From the NCBI GenBank assembly GCA_946623125.1, contig CAMOQR010000012.1:1-38365 (forward strand): DNA of 38,365 nucleotides, written 5' to 3'. Both the position numbers and the translations under genes were made by a program. This DNA comes from an uncultured Caryophanales bacterium (lineage in GTDB: Bacteria; Bacillota_I; Bacilli_A; RF39; UBA660). Within the stretch, counting starts at the first letter, position 1. Each line of letters opens with the position of its first letter. Positions 20,689-30,073 of this stretch are shown piece after piece. The notes below the pieces were generated by a model, which did no database searches, was not told the origin of the DNA, and saw only the letters and a list, made by a program, of their open reading frames with translations.

Positions 20689-21012
20689 ATGAATTTAGAT
20701 TTAGATAAATTAATTGAATTAAAAAATCAGACTAGTCAAATGAATGTAGATATTATTGAAAAGTTATCTACAATTAATACAAATCTTGATAATATTTGTT
20801 CTAATGTTCAATCAACTAATTTGACAAATAGTACAAATAATTTAACAAATATTATTAATAGTGTATCTACTAAATTGGGACAAGTTTTGCCAAATGTTAC
20901 TAATTTTTTAGATAGTCAAATTGCACAATATTCTACTGCAAATGAGGCTGCAAAAACAGATGTTGATCGCTTGGTTCAAATTATGGGTGGAATATCTACT
21001 GAGAGGAGATGA
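20689..21012 (+). CDS. Helical-hairpin ESX-like partner protein (B1)
   Basis: A 107-residue all-helical protein without signal peptide, rich in Asn, Thr, Ser and Ile/Leu. It begins MNLDLDKLIELKNQTSQMN and ends QIAQYSTANEAAKTDVDRLV plus a short tail. There is no Trp and so no WxG turn. It is clearly related to the first 105 residues of the next gene, which starts MLDLDEL and carries SQLSAYNNANVEAQTGLTDL at the same place. AGGTAGGTGAT precedes the ATG at 20689; an in-frame GTG lies at 20680 inside that site. Its stop overlaps the region of the next gene's binding site. It is probably a secretion partner or immunity/chaperone-like counterpart of the 21018 product; that is inference. Confidence 0.78.
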   Translation: MNLDLDKLIELKNQTSQMNVDIIEKLSTINTNLDNICSNVQSTNLTNSTNNLTNIINSVSTKLGQVLPNVTNFLDSQIAQYSTANEAAKTDVDRLVQIMGGISTERR

Positions 21013-21017
21013 TTTAT

Positions 21018-22010
21018 ATGATGCTTGATTTAGATGAATTACAGAGACAAAGTGCAAATTTGGAAAACTTAAAGGCAAGTTTTACTGCAGATTTTGCTGG
21101 AATAAAAAATCAACTTGGATCTATTAATGCTAATGTTAATTCTTCAGAGTTGACGGCCAGTCTTAATACTTTTTTAGATAATACGGAAACGATTACTACG
21201 GCTATTAATTCTGCTTTAGATAATCTATCTGTTTTCTTTAATTCTCAGCTAAGTGCTTATAATAATGCAAATGTTGAGGCTCAAACAGGTTTAACAGATT
21301 TAGTTAGTACTTTAGATGGATTGGAAAATCCTCTTGCTGCTGCAACAGTAGGTGGAGCGCTTGCTGGTGGTGCTGCAGCAATTGATCCTGCTGCTCCTGT
21401 TGCTGGTGGTACTGCAGCAATGGCACCTGTAGCAGATACTTCTGGTACCGTTACACCTGTTGCTAATGATCCTCTTCCTATACCAGAGGGGGGAGCAGTT
21501 TCTAGTGGAGAACCTACTGTTCCTGATGGTGGTGTTTCTACTTCTATTCCGGAGCAAGCAATTACAAATCCAACACCTGTTGCACAATCTATTCCTGCAA
21601 AGAGTAATCCTGCTAATGGATTTAATGTTACAAGCGGAAATAAAACTTATGATTTGAATTCTTCTGATTTGGATTTGTTGTATTCCATTGTTGCTGCAGA
21701 AAGTGATAAGTCTTATGATGATGCTTTGGCTGTTGCATCCGTTATTTTAAATCGTTGTGAAGATTCTGCTTGGGTATCCAGTTTTGGAACAAATCCAATT
21801 CGTCAGGCTACTGCACCAAATCAGTTTGTAGTATATCAAACGGGTGCTTATCGTTCTTTTACGAACGGAAGATCTCCTGCTGCTGTTAAATCTGCTGTTG
21901 ATGCTGCTATTAGTGGAACTCGTAATAATCGCTATTTAAGTTTTCGTTCCAATAATTCTAGAAGCTATAGTAGTAACATGATTACACCAACTGGTAATCG
22001 TTATAAATAG
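21018..22010 (+). CDS. ESX-like helical domain fused to SleB-type peptidoglycan hydrolase (B2)
   Basis: A 330-residue fusion. Residues 1-105 are the B-family helical hairpin, paralogous to the preceding protein. Residues about 108-205 are a low-complexity Ala/Gly/Pro/Val linker (GGALAGGAAAIDPAAPVAGG). Residues about 215-330 match the SleB/hydrolase_2 cell-wall lytic domain. Visible there are LLYSIVAAESDKSYDDALAV with the likely catalytic Glu228, ASVILNRC, QATAPNQFVVY, and a final NNRYLSF strand. SleB enzymes cleave peptidoglycan glycan strands as spore-cortex lytic transglycosylases. Here there is no classical signal peptide, and the ESX-like N-terminus should direct export. It could be a muralytic effector or an enzyme that opens the wall for the secretion system. 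Start 21018 is set by GAGAGGAG 9-10 bases upstream; 21021 is possible. Confidence 0.85.
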   Translation: MMLDLDELQRQSANLENLKASFTADFAGIKNQLGSINANVNSSELTASLNTFLDNTETITTAINSALDNLSVFFNSQLSAYNNANVEAQTGLTDLVSTLDGLENPLAAATVGGALAGGAAAIDPAAPVAGGTAAMAPVADTSGTVTPVANDPLPIPEGGAVSSGEPTVPDGGVSTSIPEQAITNPTPVAQSIPAKSNPANGFNVTSGNKTYDLNSSDLDLLYSIVAAESDKSYDDALAVASVILNRCEDSAWVSSFGTNPIRQATAPNQFVVYQTGAYRSFTNGRSPAAVKSAVDAAISGTRNNRYLSFRSNNSRSYSSNMITPTGNRYK

Positions 22011-22379: not shown

Positions 22380-24302
22380 ATGAAGAATAAGATCAATTTG
22401 TTATTTCCTTTTCTTACTAAATCATTTTGGTTTCTTACGATTCTTTTTTTAGAAATAATGTTTATCATTATTATGCCAGTTTCATTTTCTGTTTCTTCAT
22501 TTTTTCATATTCTTTTATTTACTTTATTATTTTCATCCATTTTAAGTCTTATTACTAATTTGTCTTCTGAACGAGTTAATATGATTCTTACTAAAATTAT
22601 TTGTTTTGCTACTTGCTTTTTATTTGCTTTACAATGTGTTTTTTATAAAATATTTAAAGTGTATTTTTCTTTTTATAATTTAGGATTAAGTGATCAATTA
22701 ACTAGTTTTTTAGATGAGACGGTTTCTTTAATTGTTTCTCATATTTTTTATATTTTTCTATTCTTCCTTCCCTTTATTCTTTTTTTAATGTCTTCTCGTT
22801 ATTTTAAGTTTTCTCGTAATGATAGTAAGTATCGTTTTTTATATTATTGTATTATTCTTTTTACTTTACCAATTATCAGTATTAATATTTATTCTTCTAA
22901 GGATAAATCTAATGATTTATATGATTTATATTTTCAAGTGAATAATGTTTCTTTAAATATTTATAAGTTAGGTGTTATGAATAGCTATGTTTTAGATATT
23001 CATCGCCTCTTGTTTGGATTTTCTCCTAAAACGGTTGGTACTTTTTCATCAAATCTTTTAAATGATCATAAAACCTATTCTAAAAATGTATTGGATTTTG
23101 ATTTTCCTGATACTAATTCTTCTACTATTTCTATGATTAATGATTATATTTCTCAAGATGAAGGTACTTATCAAAATGAATATACCGGGATGTTTCAAGG
23201 GTATAATTTAATTTATATTACGGCTGAGAGTTTTAGTGAGGTTGGTATTTCTCCTCATTATACTCCTACTTTATATCGTCTAACTCATTCTGGATTTCAA
23301 TTTCAAAATTTTTATACACCTAATGTTTTATCGACAATAGGAGGAGAGTTTCAATCTCTTACAGGTCTTTATCCTGATTATTCTATTTTGAGTCAATGGC
23401 GTAGTGGAGAGAATTATTTTCCTTTTGGTTTGGCTTATCAATTTCAAAAGATGGATTATCGTACTTTTGCTTATCATAATAATTCTTATTTGTTTCAAAA
23501 TCGATATCGCTATATGAATAGTCAAGGATTTGATAACTTTTTAGCCTGTGGAAATGGATTAGAAAAGAATATTAATTGTGATGTTTGGCCTCAAAGTGAT
23601 CTTGAAATGTTTCAAAAAACTATTCCTGATTATCTTTCGAAAGATAATCCTTTTATGGCTTATTATATGACTGTTTCTGGTCATTTTGCATATTCTTTTG
23701 ATGGAAATTATATTGCATCTAAAAATTATGATATTGTAAAAGATATGAATGTATCAGATGAGGCTAAGGCATATGTTGCTACTCAAATTGAATTAGATCG
23801 TGCTTTAGAATATTTAATTAAAGAATTGGATGATAAAGGAGTTTTAGATCGTACTGTAATTGTCTTAATGGCAGATCATTACCCTTACGAATTAAGTTTG
23901 TCTGCTATTAATGAGTTATCTGATTATCCTCGTAATTCTTTAGAAGTGAATCATAATTCTGTTATTTTATGGAATTCTAAAATGGAAGATGTTATTGTTT
24001 CTAAACCTTGTATGTCTAGTGATTTATTACCTACGGTTTATAATCTTTTTGGTATTCCTTATGATTCTAGATTAATGACAGGGAGAGATATTTTATCAGA
24101 TTCTTTAGGGATTGCTATTATGTCAGATTATAGTTGGATAAGTGAAAAAGGAGTTTATGACTCCAATACTGATTCTTTTGATTCTCATGAGAATGTTTCT
24201 TCTGATTATGTTGATTCTATTAATCGTATGATCCAAGGAAGATTAACAATAAGTAGGTTTATTTTAGAAACAGATTATTATAAATATTTATTTCCTGAAT
24301 AA
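22380..24302 (+). CDS. LtaS-like polyglycerolphosphate / phosphoglycerol transferase
   Basis: A 640-residue membrane enzyme of the sulfatase-superfamily lipoteichoic acid synthase group. The N-terminal 210 or so residues hold about five membrane helices. The extracellular domain contains the metal and nucleophile motifs: Glu283 in YITAESFSE, the nucleophile Thr319 in LSTIGGEFQSLTGLYP, and Asp499/His500 in LMADHYPYE. It transfers glycerol phosphate from phosphatidylglycerol to build the teichoic chain on the outer membrane face. It could instead be a related phosphoglycerol transferase acting on another glycan. GAGGTG precedes the ATG. It lies between the ESX-like operon and a DUF4352 protein, a surface-polymer neighbourhood with the glycosyltransferase at 18840. 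Confidence 0.9.
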   Translation: MKNKINLLFPFLTKSFWFLTILFLEIMFIIIMPVSFSVSSFFHILLFTLLFSSILSLITNLSSERVNMILTKIICFATCFLFALQCVFYKIFKVYFSFYNLGLSDQLTSFLDETVSLIVSHIFYIFLFFLPFILFLMSSRYFKFSRNDSKYRFLYYCIILFTLPIISINIYSSKDKSNDLYDLYFQVNNVSLNIYKLGVMNSYVLDIHRLLFGFSPKTVGTFSSNLLNDHKTYSKNVLDFDFPDTNSSTISMINDYISQDEGTYQNEYTGMFQGYNLIYITAESFSEVGISPHYTPTLYRLTHSGFQFQNFYTPNVLSTIGGEFQSLTGLYPDYSILSQWRSGENYFPFGLAYQFQKMDYRTFAYHNNSYLFQNRYRYMNSQGFDNFLACGNGLEKNINCDVWPQSDLEMFQKTIPDYLSKDNPFMAYYMTVSGHFAYSFDGNYIASKNYDIVKDMNVSDEAKAYVATQIELDRALEYLIKELDDKGVLDRTVIVLMADHYPYELSLSAINELSDYPRNSLEVNHNSVILWNSKMEDVIVSKPCMSSDLLPTVYNLFGIPYDSRLMTGRDILSDSLGIAIMSDYSWISEKGVYDSNTDSFDSHENVSSDYVDSINRMIQGRLTISRFILETDYYKYLFPE

Positions 24303-27143: not shown

Positions 27144-27569
27144 TTGGATAATAAAATTAGTTGTTATTTAACCGGACTTGCTCATATGGCGTCTTCTTTA
27201 TCTAAAAGTATTGGACCTTCTTTTTTTGAAATTGATTGTTATCATTTAAAAGATTTTCCAAATCAGTTTTTATCTTTTTATAATATATCTGATTTATCTT
27301 TAGAATTAGAAACTACTTCTTATTCATTTTCTGATGTTTGTCAATTTGTATTAGGGGATGAAAAGGAACTATTAGATTCTTTTCAATACTGGATTCATAA
27401 CGAATTAGGAGATGCGGAGGTTGTGTATCAGGCTAAAAATCATACAATACTTAAAGATAGATTGAGTCGCGGAAGTGGTGGATGCAGTTCATTTTATTTT
27501 GTAGAGGATGTTTTTTTTATAAAGTATAAGAAGTATATGCTTTGTTTGCTGGTTGGAAATAATGAATAG
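27144..27569 (+). CDS. Unknown 141-aa protein, TTG start
   Basis: I do not recognise this protein. GGAGTGG lies 5 bases before a TTG at 27144, giving MDNKISCYLTGLAHMASSL. An upstream TTG at 27111 has no site. There is no signal peptide or membrane helix. It contains five Cys and a near-terminal RLSRGSGGCSSFYFVED, and it ends with hydrophobic YKKYMLCLLVGNN. It is probably cytoplasmic and globular. It sits between a small membrane protein and the VTC operon, whose promoter starts right after it. Confidence 0.7.
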   Translation: MDNKISCYLTGLAHMASSLSKSIGPSFFEIDCYHLKDFPNQFLSFYNISDLSLELETTSYSFSDVCQFVLGDEKELLDSFQYWIHNELGDAEVVYQAKNHTILKDRLSRGSGGCSSFYFVEDVFFIKYKKYMLCLLVGNNE

Positions 27570-27574
27570 TTTGA

Positions 27575-27583
27575 TGATATAAT
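27575..27583 (+). promoter_or_regulatory. Extended -10 promoter of the VTC operon
   Basis: TGATATAAT with perfect -10 box. TTGGAA is 19 bases upstream, a weak -35. Confidence 0.6.
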
Positions 27584-27603: not shown

Positions 27604-28302
27604 TTGAAGTATTATCGTAATGAATGGAAGTATTTGCTTTCCAATCAAGATTTGGCACTTTTGAGGTCTCGTCTTTCTGGTATTATGGAACTTGATCCTC
27701 ATACTCCTTCTAGTGGGAAGTATAGAATTCATTCTTTATATTTTGATGATTATACTGATAATTCTCTATATTGTACAGGTGCAGGAATTCCTACTCGTTT
27801 TAAATGGAGAATTCGTTATTATAATGATGATTTATCCTATATTGCTTTAGAAAAAAAAGAAAAGTTAGAAGGAAGAACTCATAAAAAATATTGTCCTATT
27901 ACCTTAGATGAATATCATGCAATTGTATCGGGAAATATTTTGGATATTTTTTATGATACTGATAAAAAACTAGTTAAAGAATTTACTCGAGATGTTCTTT
28001 TATATCATTTTCATCCTAAAATTATTATCGATTATGAGCGAATTGCATATGTTGAGGAAATTACAAATGTTCGTATAACATTTGATATGAATATTTCTGC
28101 ATCTTATGATATTGAACATTTTTTAGATCGTAATTATATAAAATATTATATTCAACCTGTTGGTATGAATTTGTTGGAAATAAAATTTTATGAGATTTTT
28201 CCATCTTATATTCGAAATATTGTTGAGTCTTTTTCTTTTCAACAAGTCTTTTTTTCGAAATATTATTATGGTAGAAGATTGTTAGATTCATATATGAGAT
28301 AG
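27604..28302 (+). CDS. VTC-domain protein (polyphosphate polymerase-like)
   Basis: A 232-residue VTC domain, the tunnel-fold triphosphate-binding catalytic domain of yeast polyphosphate polymerase. The charged strands that line the tunnel are visible: YRNEWKYLL, YRIHSLYFDD, FKWRIRYY, IALEKKEKLEGRTHKK, IIIDYERIAYV and VRITFDMNIS, ending with LLEIKFYEIFPSYI. The start is a TTG after GAGGATG. In bacteria such genes commonly sit beside a DUF4956 gene, as here. Bacterial members are only partly characterised; polyphosphate or another polyanion is the likely product or ligand. There is no membrane segment in this protein, so the next gene may supply the membrane part. Confidence 0.92.
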   Translation: MKYYRNEWKYLLSNQDLALLRSRLSGIMELDPHTPSSGKYRIHSLYFDDYTDNSLYCTGAGIPTRFKWRIRYYNDDLSYIALEKKEKLEGRTHKKYCPITLDEYHAIVSGNILDIFYDTDKKLVKEFTRDVLLYHFHPKIIIDYERIAYVEEITNVRITFDMNISASYDIEHFLDRNYIKYYIQPVGMNLLEIKFYEIFPSYIRNIVESFSFQQVFFSKYYYGRRLLDSYMR

Positions 28303-28312
28303 GAGTGTTAAG

Positions 28313-28975
28313 ATGTTAAATGTTTTTAATAATATTTTTGGAGTTTATTTTAATGAAAATATAACTACTATTACTATTGTGTCTGTATTATTTATGGTTA
28401 CGTTACTTGCTATTTATGAGTTTTTTATTTATCGTTTAGTTTCTCATAGGTCTTTTTATAATAAATCATTAAATATTACAATTGCAATATTACCTTTTTT
28501 TATTTCAACGATTATTTTGTGTTTACAATCTAATATTATTATTACTTTAGGTACTATTGGTGCTTTAGCAATTATTCGATTTCGTACTGCCATTAAAGAT
28601 CCTATTGATATGTTATATTTATTGTGGGGTGTATATATTGGTATTATTTGTGGATGTCAATTATTTGAAGTAGGTGTTTTAACTTCTATTTTTGTAACAA
28701 TTGTATTATTAGTTTTAGAATTTCTTCCTTTTGGTAGAAAACCTTTTGTTTTAATTCTTCATAGTGATGAAGATATTGAGAAAGACTTAGTTGAATGTTT
28801 TAAAAATCGTGGTATTTCTAATCGTATTAAATCTAGAAGTTTTTCATCTAATGGATTTGATTATGCAATTGAATTTACTACAAGGAATATTGAAGGTTTA
28901 AAAATGGAATTATCAAAGCAAACTAAGGTTAGTAAGTATTCTATTATAGAATATGATTCTGATGATATTGTTTAA
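28313..28975 (+). CDS. DUF4956 membrane protein
   Basis: A 220-residue protein. Four membrane helices are followed by a cytoplasmic alpha/beta tail of about 75 residues. The family hallmark is seen in the stretch TLGTIGALAIIRFRTAIKDP, followed by MLYLLWGVYIGIICG. AGGAGTG precedes the ATG, 10 bases after the VTC stop. DUF4956 is the usual membrane companion of VTC-domain proteins and is thought to be part of the same machine. The tail (KPFVLILHSDEDIEKDLVEC) looks like a small ferredoxin-like fold. The stop codon is only 13 bases before the next start. Confidence 0.92.
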   Translation: MLNVFNNIFGVYFNENITTITIVSVLFMVTLLAIYEFFIYRLVSHRSFYNKSLNITIAILPFFISTIILCLQSNIIITLGTIGALAIIRFRTAIKDPIDMLYLLWGVYIGIICGCQLFEVGVLTSIFVTIVLLVLEFLPFGRKPFVLILHSDEDIEKDLVECFKNRGISNRIKSRSFSSNGFDYAIEFTTRNIEGLKMELSKQTKVSKYSIIEYDSDDIV

Positions 28976-28988
28976 TGAAAGAGGTTAT

Positions 28989-29819
28989 ATGAATCGAAAA
29001 ATTATATTATTGATTGTTTTTTTAGTTTTTTTTCTTATTATTTTATTGTCTTTGTCTAAGTTTCGTAATCATTATGAGGATTATCCTTTTCAAATCTATT
29101 TTTTTAATGCAGGTAAGGCCGATGCTATTGTTTTATCTAAAAATGGAAAATATATGATGATTGATACTGGTGAAGAGAGTTTAAAGAATGAAGTACTTGC
29201 TTATTTAAAAAAGAATCATATTTCAAAATTAGATTATTTAATTATTACTCATTTTGATAAAGATCATGTTGGGGGTGCTGCCTCAATTATTTCTTCTTTA
29301 GAGATTGGAGAGGTTTTTCAAAGTAATGTTCCAAAAAATAGTGAGTATTATCAAGAGTATTTGAGTGCATTACATGATAAAAATATTGTTCCTATTACAG
29401 TGTCTGGAGATTATTCTATTTCCTTAGATGATTTAGATATTGTCATTAATGGACCTAATATTATTTATGATAAAAATGAAAGTAATAATTCTTCTTTAAT
29501 TGTTACAATTACGGATCAAAATAATCGTTTTTTATTTATGGGAGATTCTCAAAATGCTCGTATTTCTGATTTTTTAGTTGATCATAGGGAAAAATATCAG
29601 TTCTTAAAAGTACCATATCATGGACATTATTTAAAAAGACTTGAAGAAGTGTTGAATGGTAATTCTATTCAGTATGCTGTTATTACTTCTTCTTCTAAGG
29701 AGTTAGAGGATAAAGAGACAATGGATTTATTAAAAAAGTATCATGTTTCTTATTATTTAACTCGAAAAGGAGATTTAACTGTTTATTCTAATGGAGAAGA
29801 TATTAAGATTCTGCAATAA
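28989..29819 (+). CDS. Membrane-anchored ComEC-like metallo-beta-lactamase-fold hydrolase
   Basis: A 276-residue protein. An N-terminal helix (KIILLIVFLVFFLIILLSLS) anchors it with the catalytic domain outside. The domain is the ComEC/Rec2 type of the metallo-beta-lactamase fold: IYFFNAGKADAIVL, MMIDTGEE, the metal motif THFDKDH (His88, Asp90, Asp92, His93), LFMGDS and KVPYHGH. ComEC versions act on DNA; others hydrolyse various phosphoesters. Start at ATG 28989 after AAAGAGG. In many genomes the third gene of VTC-DUF4956 clusters is CotH-like. Here this hydrolase takes the place, suggesting an external phosphodiester or polyphosphate substrate; that is inference. Confidence 0.9.
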   Translation: MNRKIILLIVFLVFFLIILLSLSKFRNHYEDYPFQIYFFNAGKADAIVLSKNGKYMMIDTGEESLKNEVLAYLKKNHISKLDYLIITHFDKDHVGGAASIISSLEIGEVFQSNVPKNSEYYQEYLSALHDKNIVPITVSGDYSISLDDLDIVINGPNIIYDKNESNNSSLIVTITDQNNRFLFMGDSQNARISDFLVDHREKYQFLKVPYHGHYLKRLEEVLNGNSIQYAVITSSSKELEDKETMDLLKKYHVSYYLTRKGDLTVYSNGEDIKILQ

Positions 29820-29852: not shown

Positions 29853-29864
29853 ATGGGTATAAAT

Positions 29865-30073
29865 GTTGATTGAGAAGAGTATAGAATACTAATTGATAGA
29901 GAGTTAGTGGTTGGTGGAAACTAATAATGAGGTATTTTAGAAGACACTCAGGAGTTGGTTATAGAAGTATAATCCGGAGTAATCCGTTATCATAAAAGTG
30001 ACTATTTTTAGTAAATTGGGTGGTACCGCGGAATAACTAGTTTTCGTCCCTTGTGGATGATACTAGTTTTTTT
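29865..30073 (+). promoter_or_regulatory. T-box riboswitch, Asp (GAC) specifier
   Basis: Leader RNA that reads tRNA-Asp charging and controls aspS. Stem I is closed by GAGT/ACTC and GAATAC/GTATTTT. The AGAGAG region follows, and the specifier loop near the 3' side has GAAGACACT, placing GAC (29943-29945) as the codon. The conserved T-box TGGTACCGCGG lies at 30021-30031. The terminator stem AACTAGT / ACTAGTT with inner CGTCC / GGATG and a T run spans 30035-30073. Uncharged tRNA-Asp would stabilise the antiterminator and turn aspS on. Confidence 0.93.

Follow-up and report, generated by a model that had tools for sequence, protein, structure and literature searches.

A VTC-DUF4956 operon with a membrane-anchored ComEC/Pce-type hydrolase, a candidate module for making and cutting a phosphate polymer at the surface of a gut-type bacterium

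An operon in the genome of an uncultured Caryophanales bacterium encodes a VTC-domain protein, a DUF4956 membrane protein and a standalone, membrane-anchored hydrolase of the metallo-beta-lactamase (MBL) fold. It lies on contig C12, the window of this study, by which we mean the whole stretch of 38,365 nucleotides analysed, and the genome itself is 1.14 Mb in 41 contigs and 71% complete. The operon is a hydrolase-bearing form of the already known VTC-DUF4956 module, with which the hydrolase is associated recurrently but optionally. Reasoning by guilt by association, we tentatively propose, with a probability of roughly 0.4, that the three genes constitute a phosphate-polymer module whose accessory surface hydrolase allows the polymer to be cut as well as made.

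The three co-directional genes occupy positions 27604-29819 of the + strand, where the original prediction had placed them, and each product matches its Pfam family above the cut-off. The first gene (27604..28302, with a TTG start) encodes a 232-amino-acid VTC-domain protein, a triphosphate tunnel enzyme of the polyphosphate-polymerase type (PF09359, 109.1 bits against a cut-off of 23), and is followed after 10 bases by the gene for a 220-amino-acid DUF4956 membrane protein (28313..28975; PF16316, 35.8 bits against 30.6). After a further 13 bases comes the gene for the hydrolase (28989..29819), a protein of 276 amino acids that we assign to the ComEC/Pce type from its Lactamase_B match (PF00753, 55.1 bits against 22.7), its predicted structure and its fold matches. 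The mechanically called open reading frame (ORF) for this gene (28953-29819) begins inside the DUF4956 gene; the likely start is the ATG at 28989, not 28953, given the AAAGAGG-like ribosome site before it and the better fit to homologues. Spacing and shared strand suggest that the three genes are co-transcribed. No ORF for a CotH kinase is present in the window operon. The same genome carries a second VTC-DUF4956 pair on contig C33, which is followed by a Cthe_2159-like gene and has no hydrolase.

Clusters of related composition have been described. According to passages of PMC7112168, genes for CotH, a polyphosphate polymerase (PPP), DUF4956 and DUF4832 are found next to the Pel polysaccharide genes of streptococci and clostridia. 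Passages of PMC2879425 place VTC, ‘tubulin’ and CotH genes in the NELoc-2 locus of C. perfringens, for which passages of PMC11677781 name polyphosphate polymerase and CotH genes. Judging from their size and place, the ‘tubulin’ genes of NELoc-2 are probably of the DUF4956 type. As far as these passages go, the Pel-linked and NELoc-2 clusters resemble the window operon in setting a VTC-type polymerase beside a small DUF4956-type membrane protein, with CotH appearing in the window's relatives, but they differ in that no MBL hydrolase is mentioned there (an MBL gene is found in the separate NELoc-1) and in that the window operon lacks CotH. The titles, abstracts and passages of the VTC and polyphosphate-polymerase literature that we searched yielded no published report of a VTC-linked MBL.

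A survey of 39 congeneric genomes bore out the expectation that VTC and DUF4956 proteins are companions, often together with a CotH-like protein. VTC is present in 13 of these genomes (15 matches) and DUF4956 in 12 of the 13 (13 matches), DUF4956 lies just downstream of VTC in every one of its 13 matches, and CotH-like and Cthe_2159-type companions occur in the window's relatives. When the VTC loci of the genus were sorted into types by BLAST and alignment, the window fell into type a, whose VTC proteins are 61-66% identical to that of the window (seven aligned; 62% by BLAST for G021). Nine type a loci are intact or nearly intact (G000, which is the window genome, and G002, G007, G011, G018, G021, G031, G032 and G036), and in four of them (G000, G021, G031 and G036) the cluster includes the hydrolase. 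G031 and G036 have the order VTC-DUF4956-CotH-like-Cthe_2159-MBL, and in G021, where VTC and the start of DUF4956 stand at one contig end and the tail of DUF4956, a CotH-like gene, the MBL and a Cthe_2159-type gene stand at another, the join is probable. The other five loci have the order VTC-DUF4956-CotH-like-Cthe_2159, some with two Cthe_2159-type genes, and no hydrolase by BLAST, although in G018 one may be hidden because the contig ends soon after Cthe_2159. One Cthe_2159-type companion is confirmed by Pfam and the others by BLAST. In the nearest relatives that have it (G021, G031 and G036), the hydrolase is the fourth or fifth gene, after the CotH-like gene and, in two of the three, the Cthe_2159-type gene; it is third in the window because the operon there has neither of those genes.

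Decay of the operon seems to be under way in some species of the genus. In G025 (locus L039, 2321-2953), residues 1-120 of VTC run into residues 183-288 of the MBL, with stop codons, which might alternatively be an assembly fault, and G029 retains the C-terminal part of the MBL, with VTC not found. The membrane protein of about 260 amino acids that is encoded between DUF4956 and the next gene in the relatives (L035 8991-9782 and its counterparts) is partly CotH-like (hhalign probability 56%, E-value 1.1e-4); it is too short for a whole kinase, and the likeness is suggestive. Beside the type a VTC genes of G021 and G011 we also observed a WXG100-like/C39-peptidase ORF (20.9 bits, below the cut-off) and ORFs that look LXG-like by eye (L062 1957-2853, L058 3060-4857, L037 3266-4854), which may encode type VII secretion substrates.

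The linkage extends well beyond the genus. A hydrolase-based genome scan with two search patterns, THFDKDH and one around FFNAGK, gave 463 confirmed loci, and the flanks of the best 80 were scanned with profiles, VTC being counted within 4 kb. The hydrolase is linked to VTC and/or DUF4956 or a CotH-like gene in 21 of these best 80 loci: VTC is present in 18, DUF4956 without VTC in two (L102 and L107), and L077 has a CotH-like gene with a DUF4956 tail found by BLAST. Three of the 21 (L063, L065 and L077) are congeners already counted above. At random density we would expect about 0.26 VTC neighbours against the 18 of 80 found, a figure from a Poisson calculation for 81 loci and at least 19 matches in which genomes were taken to be 2.2 Mb in size and VTC to be as dense as in the order of G039. 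It serves as a guide and not as a probability because the loci are related and genome size is assumed. On a tree of 86 MBLs, built by a quick method and with several long branches, the linked state requires 13 changes, of which supported branches force at least five, and it is clustered (mean of the shuffles 21.1 changes, with 0 of 500 as low). Records labelled Bacilli, Clostridia and Oscillospiraceae all contain examples of the linkage, which rules out its confinement to one genus.

Arrangements vary among the linked loci. They include VTC-DUF4956-(CotH-like, Cthe_2159)-MBL, an MBL just upstream of VTC (L174 and L175) and divergent genes (L082 and L098). The MBL directly follows DUF4956 in 12 loci, with script-chosen starts giving spacings from -4 bases (an overlap, in four of the 12) to 38 bases. 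In G182 and G138 VTC is immediately preceded by the hydrolase, and CotH lies in the vicinity; DUF4956 is matched weakly in G138 (20 bits). CotH adjoins VTC in G030, G182 and G138. The largest clusters of neighbouring genes around the 80 MBLs are Cthe_2159-type proteins (16 loci) and DUF4956 (13 loci), and the next reach at most nine, although some clusters are antisense ORFs and some were only partly inspected (one member for most). The inspected neighbour clusters of unlinked MBLs are mixed, so another constant partner was rejected. In a Ruminococcus clade (L097, L092, L113, L128 and L131), the gene before the unlinked MBL belongs to a family whose L097 member looks by eye like a D-alanyl-D-alanine carboxypeptidase.

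The hydrolase is modelled with a predicted local distance difference test (pLDDT) score of 95.3 as one N-terminal helix and an MBL domain. Its closest solved fold is the ComEC nuclease domain (9ic4; Z 30.6 over 245 residues, root-mean-square deviation 2.4), followed by the pneumococcal phosphorylcholine esterase Pce (1wra_B; Z 27.8 over 244 residues, deviation 2.4), with RNase J far lower (Z 20.0). The metal-binding motif H-F-D-K-D-H at residues 88-93 (29250..29267, + strand) corresponds to ComEC H598-D600-D602-H603, and the metal ligand D186 (29544..29546, + strand) is equivalent to ComEC D700 by profile alignment. H211 of a P-Y-H-G motif (29619..29621, + strand) is a likely active-site residue. 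In alignment A5, which holds the window and 79 loci (L123, present in the tree, was left out), none of the six residues H88, D90, D92, H93, D186 and H211 varies in any of the 80 rows, and the conservation of D186 and H211 is independent of the search patterns. In ComEC, changing H598, D600, D602, H603 or D700 to alanine reduced or abolished nuclease activity, and H725 and S728 were named putative DNA-binding residues (PMC12455585). By profile alignment, Y210 and H213 occupy the places of the latter pair in the window protein, and across the 80 rows position 210 is Y (45) or H (35) and position 213 is S in three. That H725 and S728 are not kept weakens a DNA-nuclease role, and a DNA substrate is not indicated.

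To call the protein ComEC-like, as was done originally, is reasonable for the domain, by fold and by a TIGR00361 (ComEC/Rec2) match of 69 bits, but not for the protein as a whole. The domain shares with the beta-lactamase-like domain of ComEC (PDB 9ic4, 30bt) the MBL fold and five metal ligands, H-D-D-H-D. We reject a true ComEC because the protein is standalone, with one membrane helix and neither a channel nor an OB domain, and because its TIGR00361 score is below the cut-off of 190; contig C14 of the same genome has a weak ComEC-like match at its end. A beta-lactamase was likewise rejected. The best NCBIfam match is the AHM B3-like metallo-beta-lactamase family (NF049846, 180.5 bits, E-value 3.5e-53), AHM-1 being reportedly a beta-lactamase of C. 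difficile, yet the score falls far below the cut-off of 590, and the motif is HxDxDH where beta-lactamases have HxHxDH. Pce/CbpE (PDB 1wra, 2bib) is similar in its MBL fold and is a surface enzyme that acts on a surface polymer, but it combines HxHxDH with a choline-binding part, in contrast to the HxDxDH motif and membrane helix of the protein studied here. Pfam detects none of the choline-binding repeats that Pce has, and the window protein stops at the end of its MBL domain.

The original prediction also held that the hydrolase is membrane-anchored and faces outward. An anchor is indeed predicted: the structure model has an N-terminal membrane helix at residues 3-24 (28995..29060, + strand), and an anchor helix or lipobox is predicted in 23 of 23 linked hydrolases, which speaks against a cytoplasmic enzyme. 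Fourteen of these were scored as having a lipobox and nine a membrane helix, although three labels look wrong by eye (L066, scored lipobox, appears to be a plain helix, and L093 and L175, scored helix, appear to have a lipobox). Basic residues flank the helix of the window protein on both sides, so its own charges leave the orientation undecided, and it is the lipobox-bearing homologues that suggest a catalytic domain outside the membrane. Export signals are also predicted in 62 of 62 distinct unlinked MBLs, which remain from 67 rows after removal of five repeats (L173, L178 and L179 repeat the linked L071, L094 and L107, and L176 and L177 repeat L064 and L073).

For the VTC protein, a profile built from 13 relatives finds the yeast VTC4 structures with an E-value of 1.7e-13. 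Columns of R, E and K that are invariant in 13 of 13 aligned VTC sequences line up with residues of the VTC4 tunnel wall, particular ones of which we take to be catalytic. The active site is intact, with residues of the kind expected in a true polymerase. The likeness to yeast VTC4 (PDB 3g3q, 5iiq, 8i6v) lies in the catalytic tunnel domain with its matching basic and acidic residues, and the difference is that the window protein lacks the SPX and VTC membrane domains and has a membrane partner, DUF4956, encoded alongside. A search for PPK1 (PF02503; PPK2 was not searched) found no match in the 39 congeneric genomes, many of which are incomplete, nor in the 11 most complete among them, whereas the control was positive in seven of 14 named genomes. 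As PPK1 was not found in the genus, VTC may be the polyphosphate synthase of these congeners.

DUF4956 is a remote homologue of MgtC/SapB, a statement of homology and not of family membership. Its predicted layout of about five membrane helices followed by a ferredoxin-like (ACT-like) C-terminal domain (beta-alpha-beta-beta-alpha-beta), from a weak model (pLDDT 67.4), suggested the comparison with MgtC. An hhalign comparison of 20 DUF4956 with nine MgtC proteins gave a probability of 97.5% and an E-value of 6.9e-12 over 211 columns, while the three controls, in which an unrelated membrane protein was compared with each of the two families and a CotH-like alignment with MgtC, gave E-values of 0.08 to 0.45. 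The two families have similar predicted helices and ACT-like C-terminal domains, but identity is 12% and the window protein lies below the reach of the Pfam MgtC model (PF02308), with no match at an E-value of 0.001; the same model weakly matches the DUF4956 gene adjoining VTC in G056 (20.9 bits, below the cut-off of 31.4). Most fold matches of the DUF4956 model are ferredoxin-like domains of a generic kind. The C-terminal domain of MgtC (2lqj) ranks third by Foldseek (E-value 1.5e-3) and is not among the 50 VIA matches listed for this weak model. A PDB sequence search with the DUF4956 profile returned nothing at an E-value of 1, and a scan of viral contigs gave no DUF4956 matches. We found no mention of a DUF4956-MgtC relationship in the excerpts and abstracts of the literature searched. 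The homology gives DUF4956, a family of unknown function, a relative and a topology.

From these elements we propose the following mechanism. On the inner face of the membrane, VTC would join phosphate from a nucleotide triphosphate into a chain. DUF4956, MgtC-like and equipped with an ACT-like domain, would dock VTC in a physical complex and take part in exporting either the chain or a precursor that bears phosphate. Held by its one N-terminal helix, the hydrolase would present a two-metal active site outside and would cut phosphate bonds, either those of the exported product or those of a surface polymer carrying this product, serving trimming, release or recycling. Because the hydrolase is tied to VTC-DUF4956 and is predicted to face outward, the product or its carrier is predicted to lie outside the cell. 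The original suggestion of a module that makes and cuts a phosphate polymer at the surface thus has behind it the VTC-DUF4956 pairing, the recurrent linkage of the hydrolase and the predicted anchor, and neither the survey of relatives nor the predicted location of the hydrolase refutes it; synthesis, export and cutting are what we propose.

Several observations weigh against this reading. Within the genus the hydrolase is near four of 15 VTC matches, the window included, and one of the four depends on the contig break in G021. VTC-first surveys found an MBL near three of 44 VTC matches in 193 genomes of the window's order (two of 42 without the window genome) and near two of 105 in 117 genomes of the order of G039 (one of 100 without G039, a sheep rumen record labelled Oscillospiraceae that was picked as survey centre because it is linked). 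These surveys used MBL cut-offs of 1e-30 and 1e-40, by which weaker neighbours are missed, and adjacency read by eye from coordinates; the 105 and 44 rows include two below the Pfam cut-off and some partial matches, and contig ends may hide neighbours. Conversely, 59 of the best 80 MBLs are not near VTC or DUF4956. Two loci (L102 9222-10735 and L107 9216-10726) have DUF4956 and then the hydrolase with a 4-base overlap and no VTC detected beside them, so the actual partner of the hydrolase may be DUF4956 and not VTC; G116, in the order of G039, has one more MBL behind DUF4956 with no VTC beside it. Since unlinked MBLs are exported too, export is a family trait and not a sign of coupling, and the conservation of H88, D90, D92 and H93 is partly by construction because THFDKDH was a search pattern. 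To our knowledge, no MBL of this subgroup has been tested on polyphosphate. The VTC-first surveys rule out linkage as a general property of VTC loci, and its minority state makes the hydrolase an optional accessory and not a core part.

Making and cutting a surface polymer is plausibly the best single reading of these data, with two close rivals. The first is phosphate scavenging and storage, in which a surface nuclease or phosphodiesterase would free phosphate from external DNA or teichoic acid, VTC would store it as polyphosphate inside the cell and the MgtC-like partner would tune phosphate handling. Its appeal is that the closest fold and profile match of the hydrolase is the DNA-degrading domain of ComEC, with identical metal ligands, that no PPK1 match was found in the genus and that DUF4956 resembles MgtC, which is linked to phosphate control in Salmonella. 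However, the putative DNA-binding residues of ComEC are not kept and the OB-fold part is missing, and a surface polymer fits the linked Cthe_2159 and CotH-type genes better than storage does. We regard this explanation as unlikely.

The second rival, which we rate as slightly less likely still, is the tailoring of a surface glycopolymer. VTC and DUF4956 would modify or build a phosphate-rich glycan, the product would not be polyphosphate as such, and the hydrolase would be a Pce-like esterase that strips phospho-substituents from a teichoic-type polymer. Pce, a teichoic-acid phosphorylcholine esterase, is the second-best fold, and an NAGPA phosphodiester glycosidase gene (L056 9427-10302, L055 5552-6319, L060 7047-7925, L061 4110-4988) is found within about 5 kb at four hydrolase-free VTC loci (in G002, G018 and G013 and at the second locus of G021; 138.9-150.3 bits against a cut-off of 25), as is a gene for a GtrA/DPM-type glycosyltransferase (by Pfam in three and by BLAST in the fourth). 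A hydrophobic N-terminal stretch is visible by eye in three of the four NAGPA proteins, those seen from their start. Together with the Cthe_2159-type companions, which are carbohydrate-binding proteins, the NAGPA genes favour a surface polymer over plain storage. Tailoring is also consistent with the cotH-PPP-DUF4956-DUF4832 genes that passages of PMC7112168 place beside Pel polysaccharide genes, and with an LtaS-like sulfatase-family gene 3.3 kb upstream in the window. Yet that gene is outside the operon, with other genes between, the three-gene operon has no glycosyltransferase, and the VTC catalytic residues resemble those of a true polymerase.

It is improbable that the hydrolase is a passenger with a role of its own, for example as an AHM-like beta-lactamase, that landed beside VTC several times by chance: its best NCBIfam match is to that family, most homologues are in other, varied contexts and linkage is rare among VTC loci, but the match is far under the family's cut-off with the wrong metal motif, the linkage is far above random density with 4-base overlaps among the direct cases, and Cthe_2159-type genes and DUF4956 are the two most frequent neighbours.

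Downstream of the operon, the next gene, which looks by eye like one for an aspartyl-tRNA synthetase, is preceded by a T-box leader (29857..30054, + strand; RF00230, 125.5 bits), which marks the downstream limit. Just upstream of VTC is a weak possible promoter (27554..27583, + strand; TGGAAA, a spacer of 18, TATAAT, and TG before the -10 element), but a promoter scan of the region gave 29 matches against 24.3 in shuffled sequence (standard deviation 4.8), no better than chance, and an own promoter for the operon was therefore rejected. The LtaS-like membrane protein of the sulfatase family, which resembles lipoteichoic acid synthase, is encoded at 22380-24302 (PF00884, 94.5 bits; NF053595 below its cut-off), and the ORF at 21009-22010 has in its C-terminal part a weak match to a domain of cell-wall hydrolases (PF07486, 26.6 bits against a cut-off of 27).

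Some gut bacteria commonly carry VTC genes, which are present in 74 of the 117 genomes of the order of G039. Extending our proposal, one might suppose that in gut Firmicutes lacking PPK1 a VTC/MgtC-like synthase-exporter builds a phosphate-containing surface polymer that exported accessory enzymes, whether a ComEC/Pce-type hydrolase or NAGPA, process outside the cell, an idea that we hold to be rather unlikely in this general form. If true, it would constitute a bacterial extracellular phosphate-polymer system of which we found no description in the literature searched. A polymer that is both built and cleaved at the cell surface would, if real, represent a new phosphate-rich surface material in gut bacteria.

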